Shown here piece by piece: positions 8,512-35,324 of a stretch of 64,000 nucleotides of DNA (the stretch's first letter is position 1; the number at the start of each line of letters is the position of its first letter). The notes beneath the pieces were generated by a model. That model was not told where the DNA came from. It made no database searches and worked only from the letters and a program-made list of their open reading frames with translations. The translations under genes were made by a program, and so were the position numbers. The stretch comes from Isoetes taiwanensis. Lineage: Eukaryota; Streptophyta; Lycopodiopsida; Isoetales; Isoetaceae. The stretch is from NCBI GenBank assembly GCA_021234155.1, contig JAJEKV010000058.1:3730600-3794599 (forward strand), in the 5' to 3' direction.

Positions 8512-9650
8512 ATCTGGAAAAAAAGAGCAAAGCAAGAAGGAAGATTAAAAATAAATTCATGAGGAAAAATCTACATCATTCTTAGACTACTTGCAAAGAA
8601 AGCATTCTATCTGTTAATTTGATTATCATTCAACTTACATGCATAAATTAAGCATGGATAATCCAAACAAAATGTCCTTTGAAAGTATAGATCGGAATTC
8701 GAATAAAATGTTCTCTATGTGGAAGCCTACAATTATGAATAACAAAATACTGACCTATTTCAAAGATTCTTGTAGAAGGGCAATGGTGCTAGCAAAATGG
8801 ATTTCTGCAGAGGAGAATCAACTTCTTTAAGCCTTGGAGAATGAACAGGAAAAAGGTCAATCATTTCTGGTTCAGCTTTTTGATGATGAAGGAAGGAAGG
8901 AAGGAAGTATATTTTAACGTCCGCGGAGGCCAAACTTGACCTATGAGACGGTACATGCAGTACACAAAGCAGATAAAACCACACCAAAAAGACAAAATGC
9001 TACTATACAATGTGTCCCTACCAGGGTTGCCCTTAAGGCAAAATCTGTCTAAGCATAATTTAGAAGGTCGGGCGAATAATAGAGTTGCAAGGTTAGCTAT
9101 GCTGGCGAATGTTTTCTAGACATGAATGCTTTTTATAGAAATCTAGGCGAATCATGGCCAATATTATTTTGCTAAGATTTAAGTGTCTTTATTTTTCAAG
9201 TGCAATTTCTGTGGTGAGATTTTATTCATCGGCATCTATATTTAATCAAGAACACAAACACATTATAACTATAGTTGCATGATGCAATACGACAACTTAA
9301 CCTTTGCAAATGAGAACGCGGCTTATCCTTGTACATAAAACAAATCTATTAAAAGGGAGGTCTGTAAAAAATGCTCTCCAGTGCATCCTTAGAAGTATTT
9401 GAAACACAATAGCTACAAAAACAACTCTTAAAATTATCATATGTATCTGGATGGATATAGAGAATAGATTAGGTTATGAAGAAAGCCTGGAATACTAGGC
9501 GATTCTTTAAGAAATCTTCGAGAAGGAGGGTAGAGGATAAGGCGAATCCATAGTTATGACGCTTAGTGGATGTGACGAATTTTCAAGTGGAGTGAGATTT
9601 GTTTGTAGAAAAGTTGGCTAATTTTATTTTTTTCATCTATACGGGCCCTA
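8512..9650. repeat. Flank of trihelix copy T1, then non-coding sequence
   Basis: From 8512 to about 8900 the sequence matches the conserved flank found upstream of the other trihelix copies (for example 31500-31900, 36300-36660 and 39860-40190). It includes a minus-strand segment read as HHQKAEPEMIDLFPVHSP that recurs at each copy and may be an upstream exon or leader. A GGAA microsatellite (about four units) lies at 8890-8907. From 9000 to 9650 I see nothing but AT-rich sequence without a gene. Confidence 0.5.
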
Positions 9651-9984
9651 CTAAACCATAGCATCAAAATTTCTCGATACCCTTAAAAAATAGCCTTTTG
9701 GCGAACTTTCGTCCTTAAGGGCTACCCTGGTCCCTACTACTGGGATGAAAAAACCCCCACATGGGAGGAAAAACCCTGGTAGTAGGCTCTCAGATCCCTT
9801 GTCCTGTAAGGGATTCTCTGATTGTAGAGACTTGCAAAATGTAGGATGCGAGACACGCAACCATTGGCGATGCCAGCAATTGATGCAGCGGTGCCGTAGA
9901 GCATCTAAGATCAGCATGTGTTGCTCGGATATGCGTATATGCCGGACACTCTTGCAGAGCATGGTGCTCATCCTCTACTAACAA
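9651..9984 (-). pseudogene. Fragment of a LINE reverse transcriptase C-terminus
   Basis: The minus-strand frame 9790-9984 contains EDEHHALQECPAYTHIR, which matches the C-terminal zinc-knuckle region of non-LTR reverse transcriptases. It is closest to the LINE at the right edge of this window (DEAHVFLYCSAYEEIR at about 63.05 kb). Only the last part of the protein is present, in two frames, so this is a dead 5'-truncated or internally deleted copy. The flanking hairpin at 9733-9786 lies inside the fragment on the 3' side. Confidence 0.5.
9733..9786. repeat. Imperfect inverted repeat (hairpin) with AAAAACCC core
   Basis: CCTACTACTGGG (9733-9744) pairs with CCCTGGTAGTAGG (9774-9786). The loop side holds GATGAAAAAACCCCC and GAGGAAAAACCCTGG. 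The inner part closely resembles a second hairpin at 45331-45411, although the outer arms differ. Confidence 0.6.
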
Positions 9985-10360
9985 GATTGCGTATTAAACG
10001 GGAGCAAATCATCGAAACGAGAGCAAAAGGAATATTCCTAAAAGATTCCCTTTTTTACAAAAAAAGGGGGGTAAAATGAGGTTAAAAAAAAAAGTTGCAT
10101 GAAATTCAATTTTGATCCCCCCCTCCCCCCCAAATGACTAGATTTTTTGTGGAACGAAAGAATTGACTTTTTCAAAGTGACACTTTTCAGAGCAAGTAGA
10201 ATGTTCTTGAGTATGTTTTTATAGAGAAACTCTAATTTCAAAGGATAAAATATTTAACAAGAAATTGAAGTAAAGTCTGTAACTGATACTGTAGTATTCT
10301 CAAAATTTGAAGATAAAATCTTCATATTCACATGCAAAATTTACAGTCTTTTTCTAAGAC
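9985..10360. other. Non-coding gap
   Basis: No gene is visible. It includes homopolymer-rich sequence (a run of A at 10084-10093 and C-runs at 10117-10131). This may hold the downstream end of the DDE-like element, but I found no terminal repeat. Confidence 0.4.
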
Positions 10361-13300
10361 TCAATTATGTGCAAAAGTGTGAGGAGTGATGAAGGAGGGA
10401 TCCAGAACGTCATCATGTTCATTTATGCCATCCTCATCTCCTTCACTTCTTTCGCTATCACTAAAGGAAGTGCTTGAGTTGTCTTCCTCATCACTATCAA
10501 CAGATGGTGAAGCATTGCCACCACCACTCCCTTCTTCATCCTCTTCCTCGTAATTACAAGCCTTTTTAAGCAAATTGATAGTTCTCTGGCGCAGACGATT
10601 GTCAGATTTCAATTTGAAATCGTAGCATAATATAGTCACATCACTTAAGTTCAGCTCGTCCCTACAACCCACTTTCTTAGACTTCCTCCCCTTTCCTTGA
10701 GTTCTCATTTCTAACTCATACCTACCTTCAAAAGCATTTTCTGAACGTGTGGCCAGCCAATGAATCTTGAGTTTAGTTACTAAGCCTTCCGCCTTTGATC
10801 GTATCAAGAACTTTTGCTATCCAAAAGGCCGACCTTTGTCATCTTTCTCGGTTGGAAGAGCAATCAAAGATACCTTTAGCTATTTACGTGATACTCATTT
10901 TAAGCGTCTTGGTCCGAGGTACATGACTGGGTCCTCTTCTTCCTCTCTGCCGGGTGCTATTGCAAAGATGACTTAGACCTGCCACGGTTTCGGGATTGAT
11001 GGAAGGTATCGGGCCATTGAAATGGTTCTTGCAACTGTCTTAGAGCTAGATGTTCCAAGACATCCTTCTGGTCAAGAAAAAAATTTCTCCACCACATCTG
11101 ATCTTCTTCTGAGAAGTACTTGAAGCCAGAGTAAATGTCATTTTCAATGGCTTTTAAGGATGTCAATGGGGTACTTTTCTTCTGTTTGGACTCCTTAGGA
11201 TTTTTGAGAGGTAGTTGCTCAGCACGCTCTATGAAGCAATGGTCTGGAACAAATTTAAGGAAGTGCAATCCCTCTGGTGGACTCCAATCCTTAGTTGTGG
11301 TGTACTTCTTCCCCTGTAAGAAGCTTTGTCCATCCTTCAAGTAGAACTTAATGTGATATTGAAAGGTAAGATCATTCAACTTGTTCCAGCTAGTTCTCTA
11401 TCTGAACGTTGAGGAAAAACAAACTCTCTAAAGTCAGCAGTCTCTTTAAGAAGCTCGACCACTGGAACAGGAGTGTAAGAATCTTCAATGATTCGAACTA
11501 AAGTAGGAAGACAAAAAGCTTTCTTCCTTCTAAGGCGCACAGAAAATCTGCTGAACATCTGGTCAATCTGATCATGGGTGTGCCCCACAAGTAAAAATCC
11601 GAGCCTTACTTTTCTGAAGATCCTTAGCTCCACTAGCATAGCACAATAAGCAAAGAGTGTTTGATTCTTGTTCTCTCTTGTAGTGTTGTCAAGTTGCAGG
11701 TAGAGCACTGGTGGTAGTTGCTCTTGCTCGCAGAGGACCTTGTTAAGAATTGTAATTGTCAGGTTTGGGTCACCATGCAAGTTTGGATACGTCAAAAATA
11801 CTTTGCACTTTAGACTTCCTTTGAATCCTACAAGGTGGACTTTAACAAAATATTCCTCTGGCACATCTTTTGGAATATTTAGGAAATGGGGTAGAGTTGT
11901 CTTTTTTTGATCCATTCCATCAATTACAATCGACATATATTGCAATGGACGTTCGAGAGCTTTTTTCTGTGCTTGGCCAGCTTTCTTCTCTCTGCTGCTT
12001 GTTGTTCACGATGTCTGGCAAGATTCTGTTGCACAATATCTGTAAAAGAAATTAGGTTAAAATATTCTTTTTATAACAAGTAAGAGGCTGGAGAGCTTGA
12101 GCTTACTTCTTTCGACCTCTGTCTTTGCAGTTTCTCGTTGACTTTTTAACTCTGCACATCTTGAGCAAACAGACGTTCTATGTCTTCTTGGAATTTTTAC
12201 CAGGCCAAATTCACTCTTCCACAATCTAGTGAAGTGTGAGTAAGAGATGTGCTGAAACTGAATGCAAGTCTCTTTGTATTCTTTGAAGACATCCTTTTTT
12301 GTAATATTGTCTGTCAGATGATACATGTTGCTATTAGGCAACTTCTCACATGTCTCTCTAAAATATTTCTCCATCCATGTCACAGCAGCCAGGGCATGCA
12401 TGGTCACAACTCTTCTTGGACCACAATGATCATCAATTGCTGGATTTTTGTCCAGTCTTTTGTGTATTCGAGACATTCTTGTGGACCCTAAACGGTGGAC
12501 AACCATGAATCATTTTTGGCAGACTTGTTCACGGTTAACGTAGTGCAAGAATGTGTTGCAGTCTGGTGTTACATGAGTAGGCATTCTGGTCAGCCAATGT
12601 CATTGAACTGTAGTTGTCTCTAACTGCTCGTAATTTAGCCATGTTAAATCTGTTTGATGCAACCCAATGAGCAGCATTTAGTTCTCAAGAGTCTCCTCAT
12701 TTTGTGTACATCCATAAGGTTTCTTCTTCTTACAGAGGAGCATGCTCTCAAACTCTTTGAAGATTGGCCGGAGAACATGTAATCTCGTTGTTCCTCGTTG
12801 GTGTCTTCATCGTCTGATGAAACTTCTACTCTAGGGGTGACTTCCTCAGTCCTGAGTGGTGTGTTTGTAGAGGAAAACAGGCCACGTGAAGTTGTTCCCG
12901 GAAAAGGCGGTAGCATAGTGTTAAAGGATGGTGATGGCCCATAAGAGGTTGTGGCTGCAGCAGTTCTTGTACCCTCCTAAGAAGGAGTTCTTGCAAACAT
13001 ATCCTTTAGAGCGGACTGGAATTCTGCAAATCCATGTGTCACAACCATTGTATTACAAGGAGTACATGCTGCAGCATCGTCTTCATTTGTAGTGAAGTCC
13101 CGGGGACGTAAATTGTAGTGAATCTCACGCCTTCTTACGGTTCCTTGTGTACTTGCACGAAGGGGGGTGAAACTACAAACGGTGGGGGTAGCTTGTTCTT
13201 GAGCACTCGTTGTGGTGGAGCCTCTGTAGGTCCGGGGGATGGAACAAAGGGTGGTGGCAGCATGCTCCGAACTGGAGGTGATGCTTTGGAAGGAGATGCG

Positions 13301-13488
13301 AGTGCACTGTTTATTGGACTTGGTGACGGTTGGAAGGGTGGTGGTAGTCCGTTACGTCTTTGGACTAGGAGTGTCTTGAAAAGCAACAACGATGTTGTAG
13401 AGGTAGGCGCGTCGGAGAATGCGGGTCTTTCAAGAAAATGCGTTGCTCCCAGCCGTTTCTTCAAACTAGACGAAGCTTGAGACAACAA
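10361..13488 (-). pseudogene. DDE-transposase-like multi-exon gene (possibly DUF7869 family), decayed
   Basis: Order from the 5' end: a proline-rich N-terminus with LPPPFxPSP repeats (13488-13135), HYNLRPR near 13100, a cysteine-containing segment (TKCCSLGC, about 12650), a central domain (12506-12107) ending in a CSRCAELK zinc-binding motif, then after a 67 bp intron the core (12039-11376). The core has three conserved acidic blocks: VIDGMDQKKTTLPHF, LQLDNTTRENKN and GHTHDQIDQMFSRFS. These resemble the D-D-D/E positions of an RNase H-fold transposase and, from memory, an uncharacterised family found in algae, invertebrates and plants. C-terminally come WSPPEGLHFLKF, a segment that reads SAFWIAKVL in another frame, KIHWLATRSENAFEGRYE, and an acidic tail. 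Defects include a stop near 13000, a stop near 12525, and frameshifts near 11390 and 10800. It is divergent from the ParB-methyltransferase gene. Confidence 0.65.
12040..12106 (-). other. Intron in the DDE-like gene
   Basis: On the minus strand the donor GTAAGC follows the exon ending in the TEVER segment, and the acceptor TTCTTTTACAG precedes ATATTGTGCAAC. The 67 bp intron interrupts the frame between the zinc-motif domain and the catalytic-like core. Its presence shows the element is eukaryote-adapted and not bacterial contamination. Confidence 0.7.
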
Positions 13489-13759
13489 AAGGTGCCGGAA
13501 GTTTGTTCACGGGCGGTTCGGTCATCTTGACAACCCCTGAAAATAGTGTAGAGATTTGAGAAACTTTCTAGATTGCAGACCTTTTCTTATTCCCGAATAC
13601 AAGTTCACGTAGTACAAGTGGACGTTGCTGTAACAAATAAGTAAAAGGCAAACTAAAAGCTATTCCGGAATACACTGGACTAGAACAGTAAAGCTAAACG
13701 ATTCCACTTCACATAGAATACTGGAAGCAAGACTAAAGGGATACGCTTAAAAGGAAATA
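13489..13759. promoter_or_regulatory. Shared intergenic region between two divergent element genes
   Basis: These 271 bases separate the presumed start of the minus-strand DDE-like gene (13488) from the presumed start of the plus-strand ParB-methyltransferase gene (ATG at 13760). They hold two copies of the element-specific palindrome: TTATTCCCGAATAC at 13587-13600 and CTATTCCGGAATAC at 13660-13673. A bidirectional promoter with a palindromic protein-binding site is a natural reading but is inference. Confidence 0.45.
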
Positions 13760-14115
13760 ATGGCACCCTCGGCCATGATTCCGGTTTCGAGCTCAAGTCA
13801 AGCGGCGCCAAATACTCGAATATTATATTCAGAGACTGTATTCCGATTCGCATAGAGAAGACATGGACAGGTGAGTAAAAAGTACAACGTACAATCATTT
13901 CTTAGTGTGTTTCTTATTCCGGAATAGGTTTTGGTTTTCTTCTGGAGGCCAAAGTGTATTCCGGAATACAATTTAGGTGGTTTTTTTGTAAAAATATTGC
14001 AAATTTAAGAAAAAGTAGCTTGCTTTTAACACTTCCTAGACGATAAAAAAACCTTTAGAGGGGCTTAAATTTGTGTTGTTTTAGTAAAAAAAGTCCAATT
14101 GTTATTCCAGAATAT
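13587..14115. repeat. Cluster of GTATTCCGGAATAC-type palindromes (group 1)
   Basis: Five good copies lie at 13587-13600, 13660-13673, 13914-13927, 13956-13969 (the perfect form GTATTCCGGAATAC) and 14102-14115. A degenerate one lies inside exon 1 (13838-13850). Two are in the divergent intergenic region and three in the first intron of the plus-strand gene. Confidence 0.75.
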
Positions 14116-15140
14116 GTTTTTGTGTTGTTTTCATCCTCTAAATTTGGGTTTTGTCTTAAATATATTACAGACACGACGGTAGCAAGAAAGCTTCTCGTAA
14201 GCCAATAAAGTTAAAGACAAAGTCACACCCACAGGCAAGTGTACCACCCACAGAAGAACCCATCGTGGTAACTAAAATTTTCGCATTAATGCTGGTTTAT
14301 CACAAGGGGAACGGAGGAAAGTACAAAGACACTTACTTTCCTCCACGCTCAGAACCGCCCTCGAGGAAAGCTCTATACCGACCGACTTTTATTTGCATGG
14401 GATTAATAAGAGCAAGTCGAAGTGGTGGGCGGCCGTGACAACAGGGAAGGCTCTCGTTCAAGACATCCCAAGAATATATTGTTGTGGACCAGGGCTATTT
14501 TAGGCTTGGTAGAGTGACACCTTCAGCTTTGTACAAGTACGTGACGCATTACATAAACAAGCTGAGGTTGTGGGAAATCATAAACAGAGTGCAATCCACA
14601 CAAAGCGAGGATTTTGCACACAGCGCCTCCGAAGATGAGAGAGTGGTGGAGGACAATGCCGGTGATGGCTCCAGTCAGGAAGAAGAGGACGGAAGTCCCA
14701 GTACATCAGAGGAGCATCAAAGATTGAGCGGCTTAAGAGGCAATCAAGGCGGCAAAAGAGCCGAAGAAACGCAAAGTGCAGGAGATTGTAGTACAGGAAA
14801 TTCCTGAGGAGCAGCCAAAGAAGAAGAAGGGAAAGGGCAAGGCACCCGGGGTTGCCATTAAGGAAAAGAAGGTGGACAAGACATCGGAGAGGATGGAAGA
14901 AATAAACCAAAAGAAATATGTGCAAGGTGTGATTTACTTGCCAAGAATCCCATGAGGTTGCCACCAAAAAATGAAGATGGTGAACGCCCTTCGTGTTCTG
15001 AAAATATATGTCAATTCAATTTAAGGAACCCAAGGATAGAATAAGGAGCAATCCCAATGCCCACGTTGCTCCAATTGTCGTTCTTGTTGACAGAACCCAA
15101 TGCATGGACCCCAAGGACTACGACAGGGAAAATGCAGACA
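13760..15140 (+). pseudogene. ParB-like/DNA methyltransferase gene, 5' part (exons 1-2)
   Basis: Exon 1 runs from ATG 13760 (MAPSAMIPVSSSSQAAP) to 13870, followed by donor GTGAGT. The intron 13871-14170 ends TATTACAG, and exon 2 opens with the frame MDRHDGSKKASRKPIK. Further on are WWAAVTTGKALVQDIPRIYC (14430-14490), an acidic serine-rich linker (14600-14800), a lysine-rich stretch KKKKGKGKAPG, and the beginning of the ParB/sulfiredoxin-like domain at 15008-15140: PIVVLVDRTQCMDPKDYD. The frame is then cut by LINE-2 at 15140/15141 and resumes at 21701. Stops near 13850, 14440 and 14960 and several frameshifts show it is dead. Identification rests on the ParB-like half beyond the LINE. Confidence 0.6.
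13871..14170 (+). other. Intron 1 of the ParB-methyltransferase gene
   Basis: Donor CAG/GTGAGT at 13871 and acceptor TATTACAG at 14163-14170 bound a 300 bp AT-rich intron. It carries three copies of the palindrome. The best placed exon frame before and after is not continuous without a shift, consistent with decay of the gene. Confidence 0.55.
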
Positions 15141-15170
15141 GGGACCATAACATCATCTTCAGACAAGCAA

Positions 15171-16706
15171 ATGAAAATCAAGGTTCTAAACAAAGGGGTC
15201 TTCATCAAGGAAGATCGACCTTTAGTTTGCCAGGATAAACCAATTCTGGAAACAAAACAGACTACTGAGATGGCAAAAATAAATAAAGCAAACATTGAGC
15301 ACAACAGGTATATGCTAAAAGGGAAAGGTAAATCCTCAGTTTTGCCCCCAAAAGTTGACTTGCATAAGACTCTTTCAAACATTATGAAGGATTCCAGGCA
15401 ATCTATCAGTCAACAACCATTATCAATCAAAGGATTTGCTGTTACTGAGAGAATCAAAACTACCTCACATGGTTTGAATGGGGTTTCATTACTTAATGAA
15501 AAAGGTACACATCTCAAAGAAAAGGACAAAGAAAAGGGCAAGCAGGTTACAACATCATCAACTGAGATTTCAACTGAGATTTCTCCAGCTCCAGTCAAGG
15601 TTCCACAGCACCAACATACCTTGGTCCACCAAGAAATCGAACTTGCTGAACCTGCTGAAGAGTATGAGGAGCTACTTGATACACTAAAAGTATCAAATTC
15701 ATTTGCCATTCTTGCAGATATGCCAGAAGATCCTGATGCTAATAAAACTGCAGATGAAAATTGTATTGGTCCCACTGAGCTAACCATTGAGCCAACCTCT
15801 CTTCTCTCTCATCCTGAAAACACACCTACAAATACATCCATCACATCCATCACACATCCCATCCAAAACATTACATTACCATTTGAAACTGCACTTGATC
15901 CCCCCCTCTTACATGTTGACCTCTCTGAAACTACTGAATTATCCTTGCCCCCTAGTAAGAATGCAGCCATTTCCCCAATGATAACTCAACAATTGCAGGA
16001 ATTGATGACAGCCATTGAGGTATTGCCAGATCCTTCTAAACAGATGTCAGTGGCCACAAATGATAGGGATGAACAGATCAGAAATATCTCAGACAGTTGG
16101 GAACACAATTTGCTGCATACAGAACATGAGCACACAATAGCAACAGCAGAAGCATGTGATCAGCACCAATCAGAGGAAAAAACAGGAAACAATGCAAACT
16201 CCACCCTACATCATATGAGATCCTCAGAGTCACCATGCTTGGAACAAGCTACTACCAGGCAAGATCTTTCCATTCTAAAAGTTGCAGATAATTTGTTACT
16301 TAACTGCTCTAATGTGGATAATAATATGGATAATGTTGATAATAATGTAATTACCCCCACAAACTTCACTGATTCTTCCTTATCTGAGAATGTAGTCCAT
16401 GAATGTTGCAAATCCAAATTCTGGCAGTGCTCTCACTCTGACATAATAGCTAAAGAAAACAACTTTGCAGAACCTCACTCTGACAAGGAAAATGCCCCTG
16501 ATCTTCATATTCCAAACATTGATAACTTATGGGATGGAGATTTTTATTTGCTTGCTCATCAAAACAGTCCTACTGTTGACCACCCAAAAAATCAATCCTC
16601 CAAAAGAAATAGGAAGAAAAAGGGGAAAAGCATTCTTGGCCAAATCCAAAACACACCTGCAGCCAATACTCGACAAAAAACCAAAAGGGCTAGCAGATTC
16701 CACTAG
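15171..16706 (+). CDS. LINE-2 ORF1, low-complexity gag-like protein
   Basis: An open frame of 511 codons. It begins at the first in-frame methionine after the LINE junction (MKIKVLNKGVFIKEDRP) and stops 34 bases before ORF2. The first residues of the longer open frame (from 15057) belong to the host sequence, not the LINE. Its position says ORF1, that is, an RNA-binding structural protein of the retrotransposon particle. However, the DUF4283 domain and CCHC knuckles typical of plant LINE ORF1 are not visible. The protein is acidic and rich in Thr, Ser and Asn, with a basic C-terminus (KRNRKKKGKSILGQ). The element may therefore be 5'-truncated, leaving only the C-terminal half of ORF1. Confidence 0.55.
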   Translation: MKIKVLNKGVFIKEDRPLVCQDKPILETKQTTEMAKINKANIEHNRYMLKGKGKSSVLPPKVDLHKTLSNIMKDSRQSISQQPLSIKGFAVTERIKTTSHGLNGVSLLNEKGTHLKEKDKEKGKQVTTSSTEISTEISPAPVKVPQHQHTLVHQEIELAEPAEEYEELLDTLKVSNSFAILADMPEDPDANKTADENCIGPTELTIEPTSLLSHPENTPTNTSITSITHPIQNITLPFETALDPPLLHVDLSETTELSLPPSKNAAISPMITQQLQELMTAIEVLPDPSKQMSVATNDRDEQIRNISDSWEHNLLHTEHEHTIATAEACDQHQSEEKTGNNANSTLHHMRSSESPCLEQATTRQDLSILKVADNLLLNCSNVDNNMDNVDNNVITPTNFTDSSLSENVVHECCKSKFWQCSHSDIIAKENNFAEPHSDKENAPDLHIPNIDNLWDGDFYLLAHQNSPTVDHPKNQSSKRNRKKKGKSILGQIQNTPAANTRQKTKRASRFH

Positions 16707-16740
16707 CTATCTCTAATATTGCCTTATCCTTTCTTTCTCC

Positions 16741-19700
16741 ATGAAGATTCTCAGTTGGAATCTCAGGGGTATCAAAGGCCCTTTAAAAAGAAGAAGGGCT
16801 ATCTCCCAGATCAGAAGTTATGATGCAGATATCATTCTTCTTCAGGAGCTTAGACTTCCTAGCTTTGAATGCTCAAATTTAGCAGATTGGATTGGCCCTG
16901 GCTTTTCTTCTACTTGGATTGAGGCCAATGGTACCTCTGGTGGCCTTTGCATTATTTGGAGACATCTTACACATAGCTATGTTCACACTAGCCCTTGCAG
17001 GTCCTGGCAATCTGTCATCTACAAACACAATGATTTTAGCTTTGGAATTATAAACATTTATGCTTCCACTGATTCAAGAATTAGAGCTAACACTTGGCCC
17101 ATGGTTAGCAATTTTATTACATCTCAGGACTGTGACACTTGGATCATGGCAGGGGACTTTAATAACACACCTACTTGGGATATGAAGATGGGTAAAAGCA
17201 TGTTAGGGTGTGCCTTAAAAAGTATCATTTAGGGACTAAAAAGGTACCCAAAAAGGTAGCTAGCTCTGGGTACTGGGTACTTTTGTAATATCTCAATAAA
17301 AGCTACGTTTTAGAATTGTTGTATTTATTTTGGCTTCCAATAACATTACTTTTATCTTAACGTTGAATATTAACATGACAATGACTTTTATTTTGGATTT
17401 TTGAGTTAGTTTTAATGAAAAGAAAATTAAAAAGTACCCAATTCTAAAGTACCTAGTGTATGTACTTTTGCAGGTTCCAAAAGTGGTACACCCTAACATG
17501 CTTTCACCCAGATAGGAAAAAATCTTAACATGTCATCTGAAGAGATTTTACAGTGGGATCAAATGCTTGATATGCATTTCTTTCAGCATATCCCCTCCTC
17601 TACCTCTGCCTACACTTGGTCCAATAAGCAAGATGGAAACAGCAGGGTATATTGTGCTCTGGACAGGTTCTACATAAACAACACTCATAATGATATTTGG
17701 AATAACTGTTTGGTTAGCAGTGATGAGTGCACATCTATATCTGACCACCAGCCTCAATTCTTTACTATCAACTACACTTTATCTGTTAAGAGGAATGGCA
17801 ATACCCCTTTTAAGCTCAATTGCTCCCTTCTTGACTCTGATACTTTCTGCAAAGATTTCATTGCCTTCTATGGAACTCTCCCCCAAGTTAGATCCACAAA
17901 TTCCATGAAATCCTTTTATACCAACATAAAAGACTCCAAGAACTGGATCAAACAGTGGTCGAAGAATTTACATGAAAGCAAGCAAGCAGAGAAAAGTGCC
18001 TATCTTAAAGAAATGAAAGAGGTAAGAATGAAGTTGCAAGAGGACCCCCTTAATGTTGAGCTTCATTGGCAAGAAGGTAATCTAGAAAGGGTTATCAAAA
18101 CAATTGAAGAGATGGAAGCAAAAGGTGCATCCATCAGATGCAAAATCAAGTATCTTTCCAACATGGATCATGGAAATTCCAAGTTCTTCTACAGAGTTGC
18201 CAAATCCAGACTTTTAAAGAGTCAACTAACCACTGTCAAAGATGAAAATGGTACTATCTACTCAGATCAAAAAGAAATTTCCAATTTCTTTTGCTCCAAT
18301 TATGAGAAATTTTTCTCCCAACCAGTAGACAGCTCTGTGCAAATTGTTGAAGCCAAATCTTTTACTGATCTCATTGAAAATAATGGTCTCCATAGTGATC
18401 TGATCATGACCCCCTCTACAGATGCTATCCCTACTGCTGAAGAGATTTTCTCAACCCTCAAGAGTCTTGCCAAAGGCAAAAGCCCTGGCCCTGATGGTCT
18501 TCCACCCGAATTCTACATTAGATTCTGGGATACTATTAAAAATGATTTTATGCACATGATTAAGGGTTTTTGGAATTCCAACCATCTGCATCCTGCTCTT
18601 TCTTCTGGCCTTATCACTTTAATACCTAAAGTTGACAATCCCCAGTCCTTTTCAGACTGGAGACCTATCTCTTTAACAAACTCCACTTATAAGGTTTGTG
18701 CTAAGATTATAGCTAACAGGGTAAAAGCTCATCTTCAAGAGATCATCAGTCAGAATCAATCTGCTTTCCTCCCAAACAGATACATCCTAGATAATTACAT
18801 TGCAGCCATGGAAGGAATGCACTGGAACAATCTAACTAAACAAAATTGTATTTTATTGAAGTTAGATTTTTCAAAAGCCTTCGACACTGTTAGGTGGAAC
18901 TTCTTAGAATTCTCCCTGCAAAAATTGGGCTTTAGTGAAAAAATTATCAAGCTTATTTTGGGATTAAATTCTAGATCCCAATCAACTGTTCTTGTGAATG
19001 GCTCCCCTGGATATTTCTTCCCTCTGGCCCGAGGTGTCAGACAAGGTTGCCCCCTAGCCCCTTATCTCTTTCTCGGGTCAGAATAGATGCTCACTAGAGT
19101 GATTATACATCAACAATCTGTGGGGAGCATAGTTGGTCTGAATCTTCCTGATAATACTTCCAACCTTTCCATTCTGCAATATGCAGATGATTCCTTCAGC
19201 TTTCTCAAGAATGAGTCAGGCATCATTGCCAACTTCTTGAACACAATTCACATCTTTGGAGCACCCGATTCATCTCAACAGAACAAATGCACTATCATTG
19301 AGATTTAGATGTTGATAGTATTGCTGGCATCAAGTGCATCAAATCAACTGAGACAACCAACCTTTTGGGTATGCCATTGTCCCTCAATCCCAGTCTCAAA
19401 GGATTATGGACACCTATTGTCTCCAGAATCAGAAAAAAGCTAGGCAATTATGGCAATTGTCTTTTTCTTTGTGCGTAATCATAATTGCTAATTTCGTTTC
19501 TTGTTTGCCTCTCACATTCACTACTCTTACGCGCCCTTTTAGCTCCAAAATGTATCTATCAACAAATTGAGAGAATTGTTAGAAACTTCATCTGGAAGAA
19601 ACACCATATGGTTAACTGGAATACTATTACCAGAAACAAGAAGCAGGGTGGCATAGGATGCAAAAACTTGGCTCTGCAGGGATATGCTTTGGCTGGAAAA

Positions 19701-20832
19701 TATATTTGGAAATCCCTGTTTTTGCATAATAATCCAGCCACAATTTTTATCAATTACTGGCTTTCATGCAGTCATCCTAAAGGACATCCTTCTATCAGTC
19801 ATGATTTGCCTTCTTCAGCTTTCACAACTCTGAAACCTGCACCAAACATATCTCCTCTTATGAAAGGCATCATCCTGGCCTGGAACAAAGTTCACATCAA
19901 CTTTGAACATTCAAGCACTCAAAATAGCCACTCGAGCACAAGCATTTTTTGGAATCCTAATCTTTCCAGAGATAATAGTACTCCTTTGGCTATTAAGCAT
20001 CCTAAGTTATACAAAAAGTGGACAGACTATGGTATTTCTAAGCTAGGTGATTTATGGGTTCAAACAAGATGAATGTCCTGGACAAATCTGAAAAATAAGA
20101 TTAGAGGCAGCTCATCTGATAAGCTATTGTTTAGATTTATCAGGCAAAAACTTAGCAACATCAATCTCTTTGACAGTCCTGTCACTAATGACTGGTTAAT
20201 TATGGGTAAGCCTCAATATAGTGTTTCCAAAGTCTACACCTGTTTAAATACGCCACACCAGACCTCCAAATCTAAACTTTATTGGGGTCTCACAGATGAT
20301 TATGAAAAAAGGCTTTTTAGAAATATTTGGAACTCATACTTGCCACCAAAGATTTCCTATTTCATTTGGTTAATTGCCAACAAGAGCTTGCCAAACATGG
20401 AATTTATCAAATCCTGTGCATCCCAGCTGCCCTCTTGGTTGCAATAATGTTGAAACTCTAGAACATATCTTTGGCTGTGCTATTCTAAATTCTTTCTGGA
20501 GGTGGTTTGAATTTACTTTCAATATCACTTGTCCTGCTACTTTGCTTGAGTTCCTGATGAATGATGATGCATTTAAGAATTCCTTGTGTTACATTGCTTT
20601 GTGGAATGTATGGAAACATAGAAATAGATGTCAGTATGGTGGAAAGACAATTTCTATATTCTGGATTAAATCTCAAGTTATCTATGACATAGAATTGGTT
20701 GCAACAAGTCAGATACACCAACATAAAGATTTCTTAGATTCTTTGGACAATAAATGGTTAAGCATTGGCAATTTCTTTGGTGCATATAAAATATTTAAGC
20801 TACATTGTCATGAATCTCTTACTGACACTTAA
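16741..20832 (+). pseudogene. LINE-2 ORF2 (endonuclease, reverse transcriptase, zf-RVT), decayed
   Basis: It starts MKILSWNLRGIKGP, the canonical start of plant L1 endonucleases, followed by LLQELRLP, GDFN and, after the MITE, SISDHQPQF; so endonuclease motifs are retained. The reverse transcriptase has GKSPGPDGLPPEFY, RGVRQGCPLAPYLF and the catalytic YADD (QYADDSF, about 19180). Thumb and zinc-finger parts follow at 19485-20072 and 20374-20832 (NVETLEHIFGCAI). Defects are the MITE at 17190-17509, an in-frame TAG at 19084-19086 immediately before MLTRV, and frameshifts near 19308, 19480, 20070 and 20440. A TAG and a few indels suggest a fairly young insertion compared with LINE-1. Confidence 0.9.
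17190..17509. mobile_element. 320 bp MITE with 22 bp terminal inverted repeats
   Basis: The left end GGGTAAAAGCATGTTAGGGT (17190-17209, extending to 17211) matches the reverse complement of the right end (17488-17509) with one mismatch in 22. Direct repeats of AGAT flank it (17186-17189 and 17510-17513). Removing it with one AGAT copy restores the LINE-2 endonuclease frame (WDMK joined to IGKNLNMSSEE), proving the insertion boundaries. The interior is AT-rich without coding capacity. A 4 bp duplication is unusual for common plant DNA transposon superfamilies, so I leave the superfamily open. Confidence 0.9.
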
Positions 20833-21309
20833 TTTGTTACTGGTAGATTACATGAGGAGCCTAAGTAGGGACATTGGCACTTCTGTTGAGCCTGCAGAGT
20901 ACAGAATGTTCCTAGGACAGAGGCTAGTTCATGACATACAGTATACATATGACATGTGGGACGTGTCCTGGGTCGGGGCATCACTGACATTGACATACCA
21001 AATATCCCGGATGATGAACTTGATTGGGCTATGGAATTTTGCAGAAGCACATACCTCATGGTGCAACTATGGTGGTTTATGGAATGTAATAGCAGAAGAA
21101 TGACTGATCAACAGTTTGAGAATTACAGAGAATGCTATTACCACTACAGGGGTTTGGCAGATGCATATGGAACACTAATCATTCTAATGTCCACCACAAA
21201 TGCAGATAGGCTGATTATTGAGTTGAATTGGGGAAATGGCCGCACTCTTATCCTCCAACCTCAGTTCCAAGCTCACTTTGATTATCTCAGCTCTTACCAC
21301 TTCCATTGA
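20833..21309 (+). pseudogene. Extra ORF in the 3' region of LINE-2, unrecognised
   Basis: Downstream of the zinc-finger end of ORF2, two overlapping frames (to about 20960 and then 20956-21309) read like one protein broken by a frameshift: YMRSLSRDIGTSVEPAEYRM, then DDELDWAMEFCRSTYLMVQL, then WGNGRTLILQPQF. It has normal amino-acid composition with Trp, Tyr and Cys, unlike a random frame, and ends 390 bases before the poly-A. I do not recognise it. It could be a third LINE ORF, a captured host exon, or a C-terminal extension of ORF2. Confidence 0.4.
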
Positions 21310-21701
21310 CATCCCTATTCTCTTCCTTTCCTTTGATCTGCACCTCACCTTTTGGACCACATACTGATCTTCATATATTTGCAGTATTTCATTAGCATTT
21401 AATCTATTTTGCAGGAATTCATTTTGGACTGGTCTTTGACTGGTTAAGGCTGATGTTGCTGAACTTTTTCAACAATGTTCTTCTCAGTTGCAGTAAAACA
21501 AACTTACCAGCTACTAATAAGGCTGAGTAATATTTTGGATATTACTATGTGCTTCTCACAGCACTTATCTTATTTTTATTTATCTATTTGCTTTTCTATG
21601 AGTGGCCTACTTATAAAGGCTCACTCAGTATGTTGTACCTTTTTCTATAATTAATGAAAAAAACCCCATTCACTAAAAAAAAAAAAAAAAAAAAAAAAAA
21701 A
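21310..21701 (+). other. LINE-2 3' untranslated region and poly-A tail
   Basis: The stretch is T-rich without an open frame. It carries an AATGAAAAAA polyadenylation-like context at 21652-21663 and ends in an uninterrupted run of about 27 A (21675-21701). The pure tail, without point mutations, is consistent with a recent insertion. Confidence 0.8.
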
Positions 21702-22097
21702 TGCAGACACTTATATGCACTATGTCCTTGGGGGTAACCACAGTTTTAAAGCAAGGAGGCAGTTGTACAAGGAGAAAAACAACCCGAGATATCTCTCTGT
21801 GCTCTGCGCTGTTTACTGCGGCCTAACAGATGAAGAAGCGAAGATAGTTGCCAACACGCATAATACTGACAACGAATATAAGCTTACAATGAGCTTCGTG
21901 GACAAAATCAGGTTCATGCATAGGGAATATATTATATTCAAAGAAAAATATGGAGAAGATTTAAAGAAACCAGCATACTCTCTTGAACTAAAGGAAGCGT
22001 GTCGTGGAGTCTTCACCTCAAGTATGACGAGGCTAACAAAAGGCAGTCTCTCATACCACATGACAACGGGTTTCAACTAGCCTTCGAGAACGGCAGA
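21701..22097 (+). pseudogene. ParB-like/DNA methyltransferase gene, exon 2 continued after LINE-2
   Basis: This continues the frame broken at 15140: TYMHYVLGGNHSFKARRQLY, then YLSVLCAVYCGLTDEEAKIV, NTHNTDNEYKLTMSFVDKI. The GGNHS..AR pattern followed by a conserved helical part matches the ParB/sulfiredoxin-like fold, in which the corresponding GxHR motif contacts nucleotide or DNA. In bacteria and phages such domains are partition proteins or nucleases and are often next to DNA methyltransferases. A frameshift near 22050 moves the frame; the continuation DNGFQLAFENGR ends at donor GTAAGT (22098). Confidence 0.65.
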
Positions 22098-22161
22098 GTA
22101 AGTTTCTTTTGTATTCTGGAATAGGCCTGAAACCCTCCCATCGACATCGCCACATCAGCAG
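22098..22161 (+). other. Intron 2 of the ParB-methyltransferase gene, with palindrome
   Basis: Donor GTAAGT at 22098 and acceptor CAG at 22159-22161 define a 64 bp intron. The palindrome copy GTATTCTGGAATAG lies at 22111-22124, just 13 bases from the donor. The acceptor position is less certain than the donor. Confidence 0.5.
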
Positions 22162-22395
22162 ATATAGGACCACGCAAAATGAAATATTTAGCATGTTTGA
22201 ACGTGGAACTCGAAAAGTAAAAGGAAAGACAAATTTGAAAAGAAAAGGGTTTCGGCGTCCCTAAGAAGGAAATGACCATAAGCGTGAAGAGAAATGGGGG
22301 CTTTTTACTGACCTCGACATACCGAAAGGCTACCGCGTAGAAGGTTGTGGACAAAGAATTCACGCTTTGAAGAAATGTCCAAGGAGCCTGCACAA
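22162..22395 (+). pseudogene. ParB-methyltransferase gene, exon 3 (unrecognised segment)
   Basis: It lies between the presumed introns and reads MKYLACLNVELEK and, after a break, KWGLFTDLDIPKGYRVEGCG, then ALKKCPRSLHK before donor GTAAGA at 22396. The latter reads like genuine protein, but I cannot assign a domain. Stops occur at about 22218 and in the following 60 bases. Confidence 0.4.
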
Positions 22396-22704
22396 GTAAG
22401 AACTACGAGAACATTCTTTCCAGTTTTTTCTTAAGTTGGGCGTAGTGTATTCGAATACACTTTGTCTTCTTGTGGAAGCCAATGTGTATTCGGAATACAC
22501 TTTGGGTTTGCACGCCATTAAAGCCAATGTGTATTCGGAATACACTTTGGCTTGCACGCCATTACAACCAATGTGTATTAGGAATACACTTTGTGTAGAA
22601 ACTTTGAGAAGCGTGTTCCAGAATACCTTACCTCCTGTCGAGATGTTTCTTCTTTATGTTTTCCTTCTTAGTTAACTTTCTTCTAATGTGGTTTTGTTTT
22701 ACAG
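22396..22704 (+). repeat. Intron 3 with a tandem array of five palindromes (group 2)
   Basis: This 309 bp intron (donor GTAAGA, acceptor TTTTACAG) contains the perfect 16-base palindrome GTGTATTCGAATACAC at 22445-22460. GTGTATTCGGAATACAC follows at 22484-22500 and 22529-22545, GTGTATTAGGAATACAC at 22573-22589, and GTGTTCCAGAATAC at 22613-22626. The spacing is 39, 45, 44 and about 40 bases. The middle units also share flanks (GCCAAT before, ACTTTGG and GCACGCCATTA after), so they arose by tandem duplication. Confidence 0.8.
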
Positions 22705-23350
22705 CCAGAAAAATGTCATCACATGTCAAACATGTTTGATGGAACAACTTAATGTTGACAGTTGGGACAGATGTAAAGAACTTTACCCCATCGCAACCCC
22801 GGATTTAAAGGATAGTTCAATATGCTCCCAATTTTGAAGAATTTGGGTATCTTTGAAGAGTTTTTGCCTTTTCGTTTCTCGTGTTACAAAGACGATCTTT
22901 TTTGCAGAGTAAAAAGAAAAATAAGGACCTGCCGGAGGGCTTCATGCATCTTGTCGGGCCGGTAGCGTGAAGAGAGGACGCTATGACAAAAGGTGTTTTG
23001 GACAATGAGCCCTCCGTAATTTAACGTTTTACAATGTTTGATCAAAACAACCTTTACTGTATAGTACATGGTGATTGCACCAAACTGGCCGAAACAATAA
23101 AGCCCCAAGATTTTACCTTGGTAGTAACTGACCTTCCTTATGGATTCAAGCTCAAAGACAGCAGCTACGACGACCAGCCATTTAAAAACTCTGAGTTTAA
23201 TGCTTTCGTCGACGGCATAAAGCAGATTACCACGGCAAAACATTGGAGGTTGGTTGTATTTCACTCAAGCATGCAATCCGGCCTTGTGGAAGCTGGTTTC
23301 AAGAATCATTTTGGTTCCCCTACGCAAGCTGGTTATGAAAACATGGTTTG
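22705..23350 (+). pseudogene. DNA methyltransferase N-terminal part (DPPY region), exons 4-5
   Basis: The segment at 22705-22830 has CQTCLMEQLNVDSWDRCKEL. A further exon-like part after TTTTTTGCAG (about 22908) reads KKKNKDLPEGFMHLVGPVA, a stop, MTKGVLDNEPSVI, a stop, then MFDQNNLYCIVHGDCTKLAE and FTLVVTDLPYGFKLKDSSYD. This is the catalytic half of an amino-methyltransferase (N6-adenine or N4-cytosine): the motif after the TLVVTD strand is normally DPPY and here reads DLPY. The exon ends NMVW at donor GTAAGC (23351), and its frame joins precisely with exon 6 at 25864 (W completed by the first base, then YKININ). Two in-frame stops and the changed catalytic motif indicate a dead enzyme. Confidence 0.75.
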
Positions 23351-23358
23351 GTAAGCAC

Positions 23359-23372
23359 TTATTCTGGAATAC
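23359..23372. repeat. Palindrome copy TTATTCTGGAATAC
   Basis: Element-specific palindrome placed 8 bases downstream of the exon-5 splice donor. Confidence 0.75.
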
Positions 23373-23392
23373 ATATGTCCTTTTATCTTTTT

Positions 23393-23578
23393 GGGAAAAA
23401 CTCCAGATTACCCTTATGTTTTGACTTATTTTCCCACATACCCCTGACTTTTCAAATATTAATTGAATCCCACATATTATACATTGTACATTGACCAGGG
23501 CCATTCCATTAATATTTGAAAAGTTAGGGGTATGTGGGAAAATAAGTCAAAACATAAGGGTAATCTGGAGTTTTTCCC
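23393..23578. mobile_element. 186 bp foldback element, same family as the Mutator-type element at 26.7 kb
   Basis: The left arm (from GGGAAAAACTCCAGATTACC at 23393) and the right arm (reverse complement, ending GGAGTTTTTCCC at 23578) pair over about 80 bases, with a short centre around 23477-23499. The arms are nearly identical to the terminal repeats of the element at 26736-27897. The 9 bases on each side do not match, so no target duplication is visible: either the ends are altered or it is an excision or deletion derivative. Confidence 0.8.
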
Positions 23579-23748
23579 TTTTAAATTAAGGGTGAAATCA
23601 CACTTACGGCCGCCCGTCCGTTTAATTTTTTTTTGCCCAATCACAGGTCTCCATTTTGCGATTCTGGGCACCCCCCCTATCACACTGGGTGCCCTAAACG
23701 TGGGCAGGGTTCAGATTCCTGGTCGGGGGATAGGGTCCGCCCAAGATC

Positions 23749-23900
23749 TTGGGCATCACACAGGTCAGCACCGGAGTCCAGTTTGGCAACAAAATTATCT
23801 TCGACCTCGTGGCGGGATCGGGAACTGGATCAGCGAATAGAAGAAGCGAGCACAGGTGCGTTGCTGCAATTGAGAATGAATTGTTCTTTTTGCATACGAT
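23749..23900 (+). pseudogene. Methyltransferase SAM-motif-like fragment within intron 5
   Basis: The frame at 23749 reads QFGNKIIFDLVAGSGTGSAN and then HRCVAAIENELFF. DLVAGSGTG followed by a strand ending in AIE resembles the SAM-binding motif of amino-methyltransferases (D-x-F-x-G-S-G-T and a following acidic residue). Since the main gene has its own, degenerate, version at about 26.15 kb, this could be a piece of a second methyltransferase copy inserted in the intron. The match is short and may be coincidental. Confidence 0.35.
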
Positions 23901-25801
23901 TTGTTCTTCCGCTTGGCAAATACAAAAGATCTTTGTCCAACTCATGTATAAACCGTTGCAACCTTTTTTATTTTCTTCAAAGCTTTTGCAATTGAGAGCT
24001 CTTGCCATTGTTCTTTTTCTTTTATGAAATTGTTGTTCTTCCAGCCCAATGCACATCATCGGATCATGCATGAAGCCTGCAAACTTTTTGTTTTTCGGTG
24101 CAAGATTTCAGACAGGTGGAATGGCGAGCTTATAGTCAATCTAAGATCTTTTGCTTGGGATTTAGCAAGGCTTGTAAATGAAGGACATAATCCTAGCTCC
24201 AAGAAGCAAAGACGATGGTTAAATGCTTGCTTGTTGCGATGTCACGTGTATGGTTTTAGTAATCGATTAGCAAAACCCATGAATGTGTATCTGCATTCTT
24301 GCGAGTTATTTCAATGCTCATGCTTATTTCTACATGGTGATCATGATGTTTTTCTTATTTCTTTTCCGTTATGTCTTCGTTAAAAGCCGCAGACAATCCG
24401 ATTCTTCAATAGCACTTGCAGTGCAAAGGTAAAAACGTGTCATATGGTTCTTGGACTCACAAGCATAAGATTGTTAAATCATTTAATTGTTCAACCATTT
24501 CATAAGCTATCTATATTGACCAGCTCCCCTAAAAAATGAAAGTGAAATAACAAAAAGAGAACCAAGCACGTCAACCTGAGTGGACACCATCCTAAGCTAG
24601 TTCAACTTTATACCATGTAAAGAGCTCGATGCAAAGATTCGACTGTAGGCGGGAATGAAAGGCAAAGAAGGCAAAGATCAAGAATTAAGGAATGACAAGC
24701 GAAGATAAAGGATTAAGGAATGACTTGCATTAAAGTGCAAAGCAGCATGGATCCAGAATGATTGCTTCAAGAATCTGCCTCAAAAAGGCCTGATGCAACA
24801 TTCGACCAAAGAAGGCAGAGGTTAAGGGATGCACTGGCACTAAAGAGCAAAGTAGAACAGACCAAATGATTGCTTCAAAAATTTTCCTCAAACTTAGAGC
24901 AAAAGAACAGAGAATGCCAAACAATCTGCAATAAAAACTCCATGCACAGGTTCTCCCTCAAACTTAAACCAAAACAACAGAGAAGCCAAACAATTTGCAA
25001 CAAAAACTCCATGCACAGGTGCTCTTCAATTAACATCCAAAGGCCAACAAAGATCAACTACATACAAATGACACCCAATGTACTCCACAACAAGCGGTGA
25101 ATTCAACTTACATAAGAATTGTTCATTTGGCTGCACAAACATAGGCACTAAGAAAACTAGCTCTTTTTTTGGAAAGTACCCGTAAAACCTTCAAATTTGT
25201 ACGCTAATGTCGTGATATATCCTCCAGTAGGCATCGCTATTGTGCAGGGACCATTTTATGTAGCAAGAAGTACCGTGCAACACAAAAGTACTGTGCAGCA
25301 AGAAGTACCGTGCATCAGCCTTTGAGTTAAAGCCATTTTTTCACATTGATGAACAGCTTGTGATCAGCATCAGCCATTCAGCTTTTACAAAATTCTGAAT
25401 GTCCTGCAATGTACAAGAGCTTGCAATCTAAAAAGAGTAACAGAGAAAAACATAACATAACAATACGAAAAGCTTTAATTTGCATGGCTAGTCTGGTCAG
25501 AGCTATCATCACTTTCCTTTCCACTGGGATAGCCAACCTAAAACATGTATCTTGTTTCATCAACATTGGGCCCAGTGTGGTGCATAAATATTCAAATGTA
25601 TCTCTAGAAACACACAACCTCTTCTTAAATTGATTCTTATGGTATGTGTTCTGCAACATTAAGTCTAATCCAGGGCCTCTATTATATGCCCACAACCTTC
25701 TTTTTGTGTTCCTGCAAATAATTTGGGGTATAATTTGGGATCTGTATTCCACAAGAAGTTCTTTTCCTTTTAGTAACACCTGCGAGCATTGTTAGGAGTT
25801 T

Positions 25802-25815
25802 CTATTCTGGAATAC
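25802..25815. repeat. Palindrome copy CTATTCTGGAATAC
   Basis: Element-specific palindrome 48 bases upstream of the acceptor of intron 5. Confidence 0.75.
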
Positions 25816-25863
25816 GTTTCTTTCGGCTGTACTTAAATCCTCTTTTATTTTTTTGTTCTTAAG

Positions 25864-26530
25864 GTACAAAATAAATATAAATTACCATGGCGGAGGGCCT
25901 AGACTGTTGAGTAAAGTCGAATATCTCCACGTCGCTTATTGGAGTTTTGATGGGAAACGTACAATGGAACACTTCAACACAGCAGCATGCCAGAACTTTT
26001 CGAACGTGTTGGAGTTTCCAGCGGTTTTGCAGAAGCTGCAGGACCCTAGTGCACAAGGAAGAATAGTGAATCACTATCGAAGCCACGGTTGATTAACCAT
26101 CTTCCGGACATGTTCTCACGCCCAGAGATTGGATGCTCGACGATTTTCTCGGCTCGTACAACAACTATTGCTTGTGCACTTAAGAAGGGTCGTGAATCGG
26201 TAGCAATTGATATTGATAAGGAGGTCGCCGGGTTTCATTAAAATGAGACTTTCTGCTTTACCAACTCTACCAGACGAGAATCAAGAGTTGGGGGCAAAGT
26301 CTAATTCTGATTTTGCTAAGATGACATCTTCGGAAATACAGCCTCCCTTTACAAGCTCCTTGGATGACGAAGCTACTTTTGCAGAGTTGAAAGAAGTAGC
26401 TCTTTGCCGCCATATCGAATCAACCATCATTAATCGGAAGCCTAAGTCGCCAGAAAACGGTGAGAAGATAGAAACCGACCAAGCAGAGAGCAGTAAGAAA
26501 AATGAAGAAGACTACAATTTAGATCTCTGA
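25864..26530 (+). pseudogene. DNA methyltransferase C-terminal part and tail, exon 6
   Basis: It continues the methyltransferase in phase: YKININYHGGGPRLLSKVEY, HVAYWSFDGKRTMEHFN, SNVLEFPAVLQKLQDPSAQG. After a one-base frameshift near 26088 follow HLPDMFSRPEIGC, FSARTTTIACALKKGRESVA and IDIDKEVAGF. The second group is the SAM-binding region, where DxFxGSGTT is expected; here it is degenerate (STIFSARTTT), while the following helix and the acidic IDID strand are well preserved. A stop (26239-26241) and a shift lead to a charged tail ending in a TGA at 26528-26530. The order catalytic motif before SAM motif is that of beta-class amino-methyltransferases. Signs of decay agree with the 5' exons. 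Confidence 0.7.
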
Positions 26531-26726
26531 CGGACCTTTTGCTGTGGTTACTGACTGATATTTATTATTGATTGCCATTACTGATGTAACACAAAAACAG
26601 TAAAGAAATTATTATTGTTATTTTTACTAAATTTGTGTTTTTTGTACATCCACCTACAAATAATTTTGTACTCATGTCTCAATTGTGCTATTTTCACGTG
26701 CTTCACTCCAAAAAACGAAAGTCGTG
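26531..26726. other. 3' flank of the methyltransferase gene
   Basis: AT-rich, non-coding. It may contain the 3' untranslated region and the right end of the composite element; I could not find an inverted copy of any sequence near 10.0-10.4 kb. Confidence 0.4.
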
Positions 26727-27128
26727 TTTAAAAAAGGGAAAAACTCCAGATTACCCTTATGTTTTGACTTATTTTCCCACATACCCCTAACTTTTCAAAT
26801 ATTAATGGAATGGCCCTGGTCAATGTACAATGTATAATGTAGTTTTGATAATTGTTAACATACCCTTATGTTTTGACATAATTTCTCAAATACCCTTATG
26901 TTTCCTTCGAATTCACAAAATACCCTTGATGCCTCTAACGTGTGTTTTATTTCAAATTTCAAACTTGCAGCTCCATAGAAATACCCTTGCAGCTCCATAG
27001 AAAAGTCTGTGGCAAAAGTCTTTGGCAAAAATCCTCTAGTAAGTCTGAGCTTACTGTGGCTGGAGTGGCTTTAGAGTAGGAATGAATCCGTGGCTGAAAT
27101 CAATTGGCAAAATCCGAGTTGGCTGTGT

Positions 27129-27410
27129 AAAATCCGAGCTTACTGTGGCAAATTCCGAGCTTACTCTTGCTGGAGCGGCTATATAGCAAGAGCAAAATCC
27201 GTCCTTTCGTGCTGGAGCAAAATCCGAGCTGGAGCGGCAAATCTGTGGGAAATAAGAAACAAAATCAGAATCATTGGCAAAATCCGAGCTTACTGTGGAA
27301 AATTCCAAGCTTACTCTTGCTGGAGCGGCTTTATAGCAGGAGCAAAATCCGTCCTTTCGTGCTGGAGCAAAATCCGAGCTGGAGTGGCATGCAATTTCTA
27401 TGAAAAAGGA
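27129..27410. repeat. 150 bp tandem duplication inside the MULE
   Basis: AAATCCGAGCTTACTGTGG starts at 27129-27130 and again 150 bases later; both units contain TTACTCTTGCTGGAGCGGCT and GTCCTTTCGTGCTGGAGC. 150 is a multiple of three and the plus frame at 27090 stays open through both units (peptide core AYSCWSGYIARAKSVLSCWS and a variant). Whether this is coding is unknown. Confidence 0.75.
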
Positions 27411-27605
27411 ATCGGTTTTCGCGGGAGGTAAGAATCAATTCGTTCTTTGTGACAAAAGAAATGGATTTGCGGACAAAGAGATCGGCTTTTGTCTTTGAAG
27501 AGATCGATTCGTTCTTCGCTTTTCTTTGAAGAGATCGCTGTGACAAAAGAAACGGATCGCTGCTGCTCCAATAGAACCCTAACACCAACTCTAATTCCTT
27601 GCTCT

Positions 27606-27704
27606 GTAGCACCAAAAAAAGCAACCACCGAAAATGTTGTAGCACCGAAAAAAGCAACCACCGAAAATGTTGTAGCACCGAAAAAGCCCACGAACATGCT
27701 GTAG
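27606..27704 (+). repeat. 33 bp tandem repeat (11-residue units) inside the MULE
   Basis: Units start with GTAGCACC at 27606, 27639 and 27672, with a partial one at 27701. In the plus frame 27489-27704 they encode APKKATTENVV, APKKATTENVV and APKKPTNML followed by a stop. The repeat preserves frame and could be a short basic protein tail or a non-coding minisatellite. Confidence 0.6.
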
Positions 27705-29900: not shown

Positions 29901-29954
29901 GATTTCAAATTGATGGACATAGAAGTCACTCATAAGAATTTCATGAAATAAACA

Positions 29955-35320: not shown

Positions 35321-35324
35321 AAGG

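Follow-up and report, generated by a model that had tools for sequence, protein, structure and literature searches.

The window analysed here is a 64,000-nucleotide stretch of the genome of Isoetes taiwanensis (contig JAJEKV010000058.1), and positions 9980-28051 of it are one dead copy of a Sola1-like cut-and-paste plant transposon. The element carries a DUF7869 transposase gene on the minus strand and, divergent from it, a plus-strand gene in which a ParB-like region is joined to a DNA methyltransferase (ParB-MTase, or PMT), together with arrays of a short palindrome. Comparison with five further copies (A to E) gives a length of about 8.05 kb, seen in copy A, between AACAAGATTGCGTATTAAACGGGAG at one end and its inverted counterpart at the other. 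In the window the terminal inverted repeats are 25 bp long (AACAAGATTGCGTATTAAACGGGAG at 9980-10004 on the plus strand and AACAAGGTTGCAAATTAAACGGGAG at 28027-28051 on the minus strand) and are alike at 22 of the 25 bases. They are flanked by TACT (9976-9979) and TATT (28052-28055), a target-site duplication with three of four bases equal. Exact 4-bp duplications are found in five of the six elements with both ends, namely copies A, C, D and E (CATT, AAAC, ATAT and TAAG) and an element of a related family at locus L038 (CTAC), whose family shares the AACAA start of the inverted repeats. Copy B has no left end. The Sola transposons have 4-bp target-site duplications and inverted repeats of 11-1124 bp, according to the accessible text of PMC10741241, and the present element has both the 4-bp duplications and terminal repeats in this variable range. 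In having a ParB-MTase gene on the other strand it also resembles Sola1-1_Ec32, although not all Sola transposons share this trait. It is filed under Sola1 because of these ends, duplications and partner gene; no sequence match to a reference Sola1 lies behind the filing.

The transposase gene occupies 10361-13525 of the minus strand, with its start ATG at 13525 in a model read from the sequence, and is broken in this copy. The frame at 11376-12005 matches the DDE-like Pfam domain DUF7869 (PF25273) with an E value of 9e-49, and the search with the proteins of the copies gave 1.9e-51. This frame holds the three acidic blocks pointed out in an earlier note on this DNA; they are kept in the frames of L038, L039 and L041 and are candidates for the DDD of a Sola transposase. 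The earlier note had also described the gene as multi-exon, but much of this is decay: in copy A it reads as one 784-residue stop-to-stop frame with a separate N-terminal frame before it. DUF7869 was not found in the open-access literature searched, and a sequence search of the PDB with the transposase gave no matches at E values up to 10. A viral origin was considered and rejected, with none of seven pattern stretches in viral contigs being related; a GHTH-type pattern gave six stretches, the best at E 0.29 and none convincing, which we read as chance or phosphoesterase-like.

PMT is a single spliced gene for a predicted ParB-like region followed by a beta-class amino (N4-cytosine or N6-adenine) DNA methyltransferase. 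A short first coding exon is likely (ATGGACAG at 13863-13870, followed by GTGAGT), with the start as read from the sequence. The ParB-like exon is divided by an insertion into a 5' part (14171-15140) and a 3' part (21698-22097, with GGNHS at 21730). It is followed by exon 2 (IWDLQN..., 22162-22395), exon 3 (22705-22839), exon 4 (22908-23350), which carries motif IV, DLPYG, in the frame 23025-23354, and exon 5 (25864-26526), which runs from the motif I region to the protein end with IDID at 26206. An alignment of 18 loci and copies A to E, reduced to 20 rows with L014, L015 and L028 left out, shows four introns at matching places, each bordered by GT..AG. The multi-exon reading of this gene in the earlier note thus stands, and the GGNHS, IDID and DLPYG motifs that it named are all present. 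It had placed the two starts 271 bp apart; in our model the distance from the ATG at 13525 (minus) to that at 13863 (plus) is about 340 bp. Its limits for the element, 10361-26530, missed the terminal repeats at the true ends.

Motif IV (D[LI]PYG) is placed before motif I (DAFSGSGT), the permuted beta-class N6/N4 order also found in CcrM and PF01555. Motif I is broken in the window frames and intact in copies A, C and E. The copy C protein, which is open across the joins for at least its last 769 residues, matches PF01555 (N6_N4_Mtase) with an E value of 6.3e-19 and 69.2 bits against a cut-off of 26.7, and PMT matches phrog_67 (E 1.2e-27) and CcrM (E 6e-10). Unlike CcrM, the methyltransferase lies behind a ParB-like region, is spliced, sits in a plant transposon and has DLPY or DIPY at motif IV, for which the consensus of N6_N4 methylases is DPPY. 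For the ParB N-terminal domain no family scored above its cut-off, and the label ParB-like is one we presume from a motif. It is also used because a paper on Ectocarpus (PMC12477816), in its accessible part, names such a protein so. In scans for a prokaryotic source of the methyltransferase, none of 64 pattern stretches in genome contigs was related and three of 85 in viral contigs were weakly so; these scans, with two short peptides outside the catalytic motifs, are weak tests. Translated searches of phages with the methyltransferase gave 1,034 records, of which 20 are listed at 22-26% identity, and with ParB plus methyltransferase 454 records, none reaching 80% query coverage.

The ratio of nonsynonymous to synonymous substitutions (dN/dS) is 0.20 in the ParB exon, 0.05 in exon 2, where dS is near saturation, 0.09 in exon 4 and 0.10 in exon 5, against 1.18-2.37 in shifted frames. 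These values come from 153-165 pairs among 19 copies, with copy D and exon 3 left out; pairs entered only if dS exceeded 0.02 and at least 60 codons were available. The low ratios show purifying selection, the PMT protein having been kept while the family spread.

The 1.66-Gb genome has four LFY-domain matches, in keeping with a plant and probably a land plant, LFY being known from land plants and streptophyte algae. Rough counts of candidates for the two genes in the Isoetes genome are 9,723 and 2,319, of which the best 150 each were scored. Among these, 39 transposase/PMT pairs lie within 20 kb of each other and 36 of them are divergent, where 0.54 pairs would be expected; one transposase place is counted twice, and other places have no partner among the matches listed. 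The back-to-back layout described in the earlier note thus goes far beyond what chance would give, and copies do not always carry one gene only, the finding that it had named as fatal to its proposal of a single element. A DUF7869 search of the same genome, with at least 150 matches, reveals further families; from the matches listed we chose 17 loci outside the window family by hand, 13 of them examined over 5 kb each. In L038-L041 the larger transposase halves are 49-54% identical to the window family and the ParB part about 47%; three of the four loci have a divergent ParB-MTase match, that in L039 to the ParB part only. The match is also present in nine of the 13 further loci, each time divergent. 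Four of the loci (L038, L046, L047 and L053) retain D[LI]PYG, and L038 retains DAFSGSGTT as well; the L041 copy is decayed in this region. That the transposase and PMT form one transposon, as the earlier note held, is supported by their co-occurrence, the common ends, the target duplications and the pairing in families with about half-identical transposases.

Copies A to E each contain 10-14 sites of the form TATTC-N(0-4)-GAATA, mostly TATTCYRGAATA, where at most 0.06 would be expected, and none was found in 28.2 kb of their flanks. The window has 12 palindromes where 0.3 would be expected, and all but one of them lie inside the element. Two palindrome-type sites (TATTCCCGAATA and TATTCCGGAATA, 13588-13672) belong to the promoter region that the genes share. 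Three palindromes lie in the likely first intron (13915, 13957 and 14103, within 13915-14114), one in the intron after the ParB-like exon (22112-22123), an array of three in intron 2 (22448, 22487 and 22532, within 22448-22542) and two in intron 4 (23360-23371 and 25803-25814). Over the 20 aligned copies, 243 sites of TATTC-N(0-2)-GAATA divide into 126 in introns and 117 in the promoter and 5' part, with none in 56.5 kb of exons and none in 10.1 kb of the 3' part. The first 3.5 kb of copies A to E, the transposase half, also has none.

The other families have palindromes of their own. L038 carries five copies of GTATGAATTCATAC and L042 five of the same arm type, GTATAA-NN-TTATAC occurs 3-20 times per locus in nine loci and CTATGC-NN-GCATAG 4-7 times per locus in four, so that 15 of the 17 loci carry one palindrome type. 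Not one of 146 exact sites falls in the 33.0 kb of matched coding parts, which are matched stretches and not exon maps, the other DNA amounting to 72.0 kb. Cross-matches between families are nil, apart from a single GTATAA-type site in L038 and another in L042. In unrooted trees, one built from 20 ParB fragments and one from 21 transposase fragments, loci with the same palindrome type cluster together, and in both the L038/L042 family adjoins the GTATAA family, from which its palindrome differs by one base per arm. The DUF7869 transposase of L049 falls in the GTATAA clade, yet the 5 kb of this locus contain no palindromes and no ParB-MTase match, which makes it a possible control for deciding to which of the two proteins the palindromes belong. 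Exact sites over the whole genome, counted anywhere and not assigned to elements, number 6,792, 12,556 and 2,003 for three of the four types, the GTATGA type being left out, against 24, 17 and 1 for reversed controls. The spacing of the palindromes follows the DNA helical turn, with best fits of 10.2, 10.3 and 10.5 bp in three families (130, 82 and 11 intervals of 15 to 130 bp; 23 copies for the window family).

A second, distant family of ParB/MTase-like genes is present in high copy number (at least 92 matches; L040:2723-5183 and L055:2791-7323 on the plus strand, L056:2013-4497 on the minus strand). It has a ParB-like INGNHS and a methyltransferase-like domain with an altered motif I (VLDFFSGGAFSRA). 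It has a palindrome of its own, TGGCGC-NNNN-GCGCCA, with 13 sites in L040, two in L055 and four in L056; they lie upstream of the gene and, in L040, also between the ParB and methyltransferase frames. Searches of 10 kb at L055 and 20 kb at L056/L057 gave no match to the window-family transposase, though the gene in L040 adjoins a DUF7869 transposase that has GTATAA sites.

The pairing of a transposase with a ParB-MTase gene is already known from Ectocarpus, and the palindrome arrays are new here. According to the accessible text of PMC12477816, the DNA transposon Sola1-1_Ec32 carries, besides its transposase gene, an opposite-strand gene for a ParB-like/N4mC-N6mA-type methyltransferase. Its authors suggest that proteins of this kind may bind the transposon that encodes them and modify it; they cite similar proteins in green and red algal transposons (Iyer 2011, Petroll 2025). 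That element belongs to a brown alga and is 21.5 kb long with a 1104-residue protein, whereas the Isoetes element is about 8 kb, has thousands of candidate places and occurs in at least four families; no mention of palindrome arrays was found in that text for Sola1-1_Ec32. Elsewhere, a fern genome paper reports more Sola elements in Azolla than in Salvinia (PMC6786969, accessible part). The transposable elements with DNA methyltransferases described in the available part of PMC5890265 are likewise a parallel, but there dinoflagellate and charophyte retrotransposons carry C5 cytosine enzymes, with Dam-like N6A enzymes in DIRS elements. Neither the pairing in a land plant nor the palindromes were found in the open-access literature searched, and for ParB together with Sola the Ectocarpus paper is the sole fit, as far as titles and counts tell.

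In form, the layout resembles that of the VANDAL transposons of Arabidopsis, whose transposase is a Mutator-like element (MULE) transposase. The Pfam search of the element proteins found neither a VANC protein nor a MULE transposase domain, so that the Isoetes element would be alike in working and not a member. Each VANC protein binds short motifs that recur in arrays through the noncoding DNA and introns of the VANDAL family that encodes it, and silencing marks are thereby removed (PMC5735166; PMC10398659; accessible parts). Family-specific motif arrays in noncoding and intron DNA, spread by tandem repeats, are common to both, the reader being the element's own protein, as it would be here. 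The VANC21 motif has nine bases in one orientation, in contrast to the 14-bp palindromes of Isoetes, and VANDAL has a VANC protein and no methyltransferase where the Isoetes element has DUF7869 and methyltransferase domains.

Because the layout equals that of VANC and VANDAL in form, we propose that PMT recognises and marks its own family. The ParB-like part would bind the palindromes as parS-like sites of its own, bacterial parS sites being palindromic, and the methyltransferase would mark the promoter and intron DNA of the element, only its own family being recognised. The likeliest benefit would be counter-silencing, the genes being kept on against host DNA methylation, and autoregulation of both genes may be part of the same binding. 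We consider it probable that the PMT of this dead Sola1-like transposon acted on its family through the palindromes in this way. The wider form of the proposal, in which each family has a ParB-like methyltransferase and its own phased palindrome arrays co-diverging, with a self-mark of N6-methyladenine or N4-methylcytosine (6mA or 4mC) to escape host silencing, we put forward more tentatively, at slightly short of an even chance. The suggestion of the earlier note that the methyltransferase may mark its own DNA gains support from the family-specific palindromes.

Several observations weigh against this proposal. The ParB-like scores are weak (DUF6551 at E 0.0015-0.015 and 15.2-18.6 bits against a cut-off of 26.8; phrog_1033 at E 0.019), every one of the 20 aligned copies has at least one break in the plus-strand gene as cut, and an AlphaFold model of the window's 208-residue exon, made with no alignment, had a predicted local distance difference test score (pLDDT) of 36 and was not used. 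L043 and L049 have neither a PMT match nor palindromes in their 5 kb, L045 and L050 have palindromes and no PMT match within 5 kb, L040 has a few palindromes and no PMT match, and one exact site in L041 (1578) lies beyond the stretch that matches PMT, outside promoter and introns. Tandem duplication inflates the spacing statistic: when repeats of a spacing are ignored, R at 10.4 bp drops from 0.69 to 0.34 in the window family and from 0.58 to 0.32 in the GTATAA family, and is nearly unchanged (0.83 to 0.82) in the CTATGC family. The altered motif I of the second family means that methylation may not be needed, and there binding may outweigh methylation.

Palindrome type also agrees equally with the trees of both proteins, transposase and ParB, so that co-divergence alone cannot tell which of them binds. 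The sites could accordingly belong to the transposase or to a host factor, as promoter or enhancer sequences, leaving the methyltransferase another task, and the many palindromes in the divergent promoter part would suit this. In the window family, however, the 3' part has none, nor does the transposase half in the five copies A to E, and palindromes stand beside the distant ParB/MTase-like gene in L055 and L056/L057, with no transposase match in 10 and 20 kb, though L040 has a DUF7869 neighbour; we regard this alternative as unlikely. PMT is preferred as the binder because the window family has no sites near its ends, the palindrome form is parS-like and the distant ParB/MTase family has its own palindrome. 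The same absence of candidate sites from the terminal parts, where the transposase would act, makes it quite improbable that the methyltransferase is a transposition switch that sets the time of excision by marking copies that are new or have been replicated. Transposition of IS10 and Tn5 is switched by Dam methylation in this manner, and the link to a transposase and the relation of the amino-methyltransferase to CcrM would fit. That PMT is a useless passenger copied along by chance might be thought from its many broken copies. It seems very improbable given the purifying selection on PMT, the pairing kept across families that are about half identical and the report of ParB-MTase genes in algae too (PMC12477816, accessible text).

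Self-marking by PMT would mean that a plant transposon sets a non-CpG, bacterial-type mark, 6mA or 4mC, on itself. It remains an open question whether these are real marks in plants, and the element makes it directly testable, naming a predicted writer, predicted targets, thousands of natural sites and control palindromes in other families: on this reading 6mA or 4mC should occur within or next to GTATTCYRGAATAC, and the palindromes of other families should lack it. It would also mean that sequence-specific self-recognition against silencing arose twice in plants by different means, and it suggests a role for the published algal ParB-MTase genes.

The window copy is broken by a long interspersed nuclear element (LINE) and two further stretches, as well as by frame breaks. 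The LINE (15141-21697, plus strand), which splits the ParB exon, has a reverse transcriptase domain and ends in poly-A. The duplication on its flanks measures up to 12 bases, the first As of which merge with the poly-A. The LINE was rejected as a part of the element, other copies being without it. The two other insertions, at about 23393-25755 (starting near GGGAAAAACTCC) and 26735-27900 (with inverted ends GGGAAAAACTCC...), are also absent from other copies. They share the left end GGGAAAAACTCCAGATTACCC, and 26735-27900 has the inverted right end as well. To the right of the element, 28537-40173 is a large array of diverged direct repeats, of which a partial copy lies to its left at 6857-8891. 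In L056, a 470-residue frame (8357-9766, plus strand) begins like a histone H3 tail (MAQTKQTARKARPG) and continues through a long charged insert to a terminal histone fold (PF00125, E 9.2e-27), with 108 matches at 91 scored places. Two pairs of this H3-like frame and the second ParB family lie within 20 kb of each other (50 by 51 top places), and the frame is perhaps an H3 borne by a mobile element.

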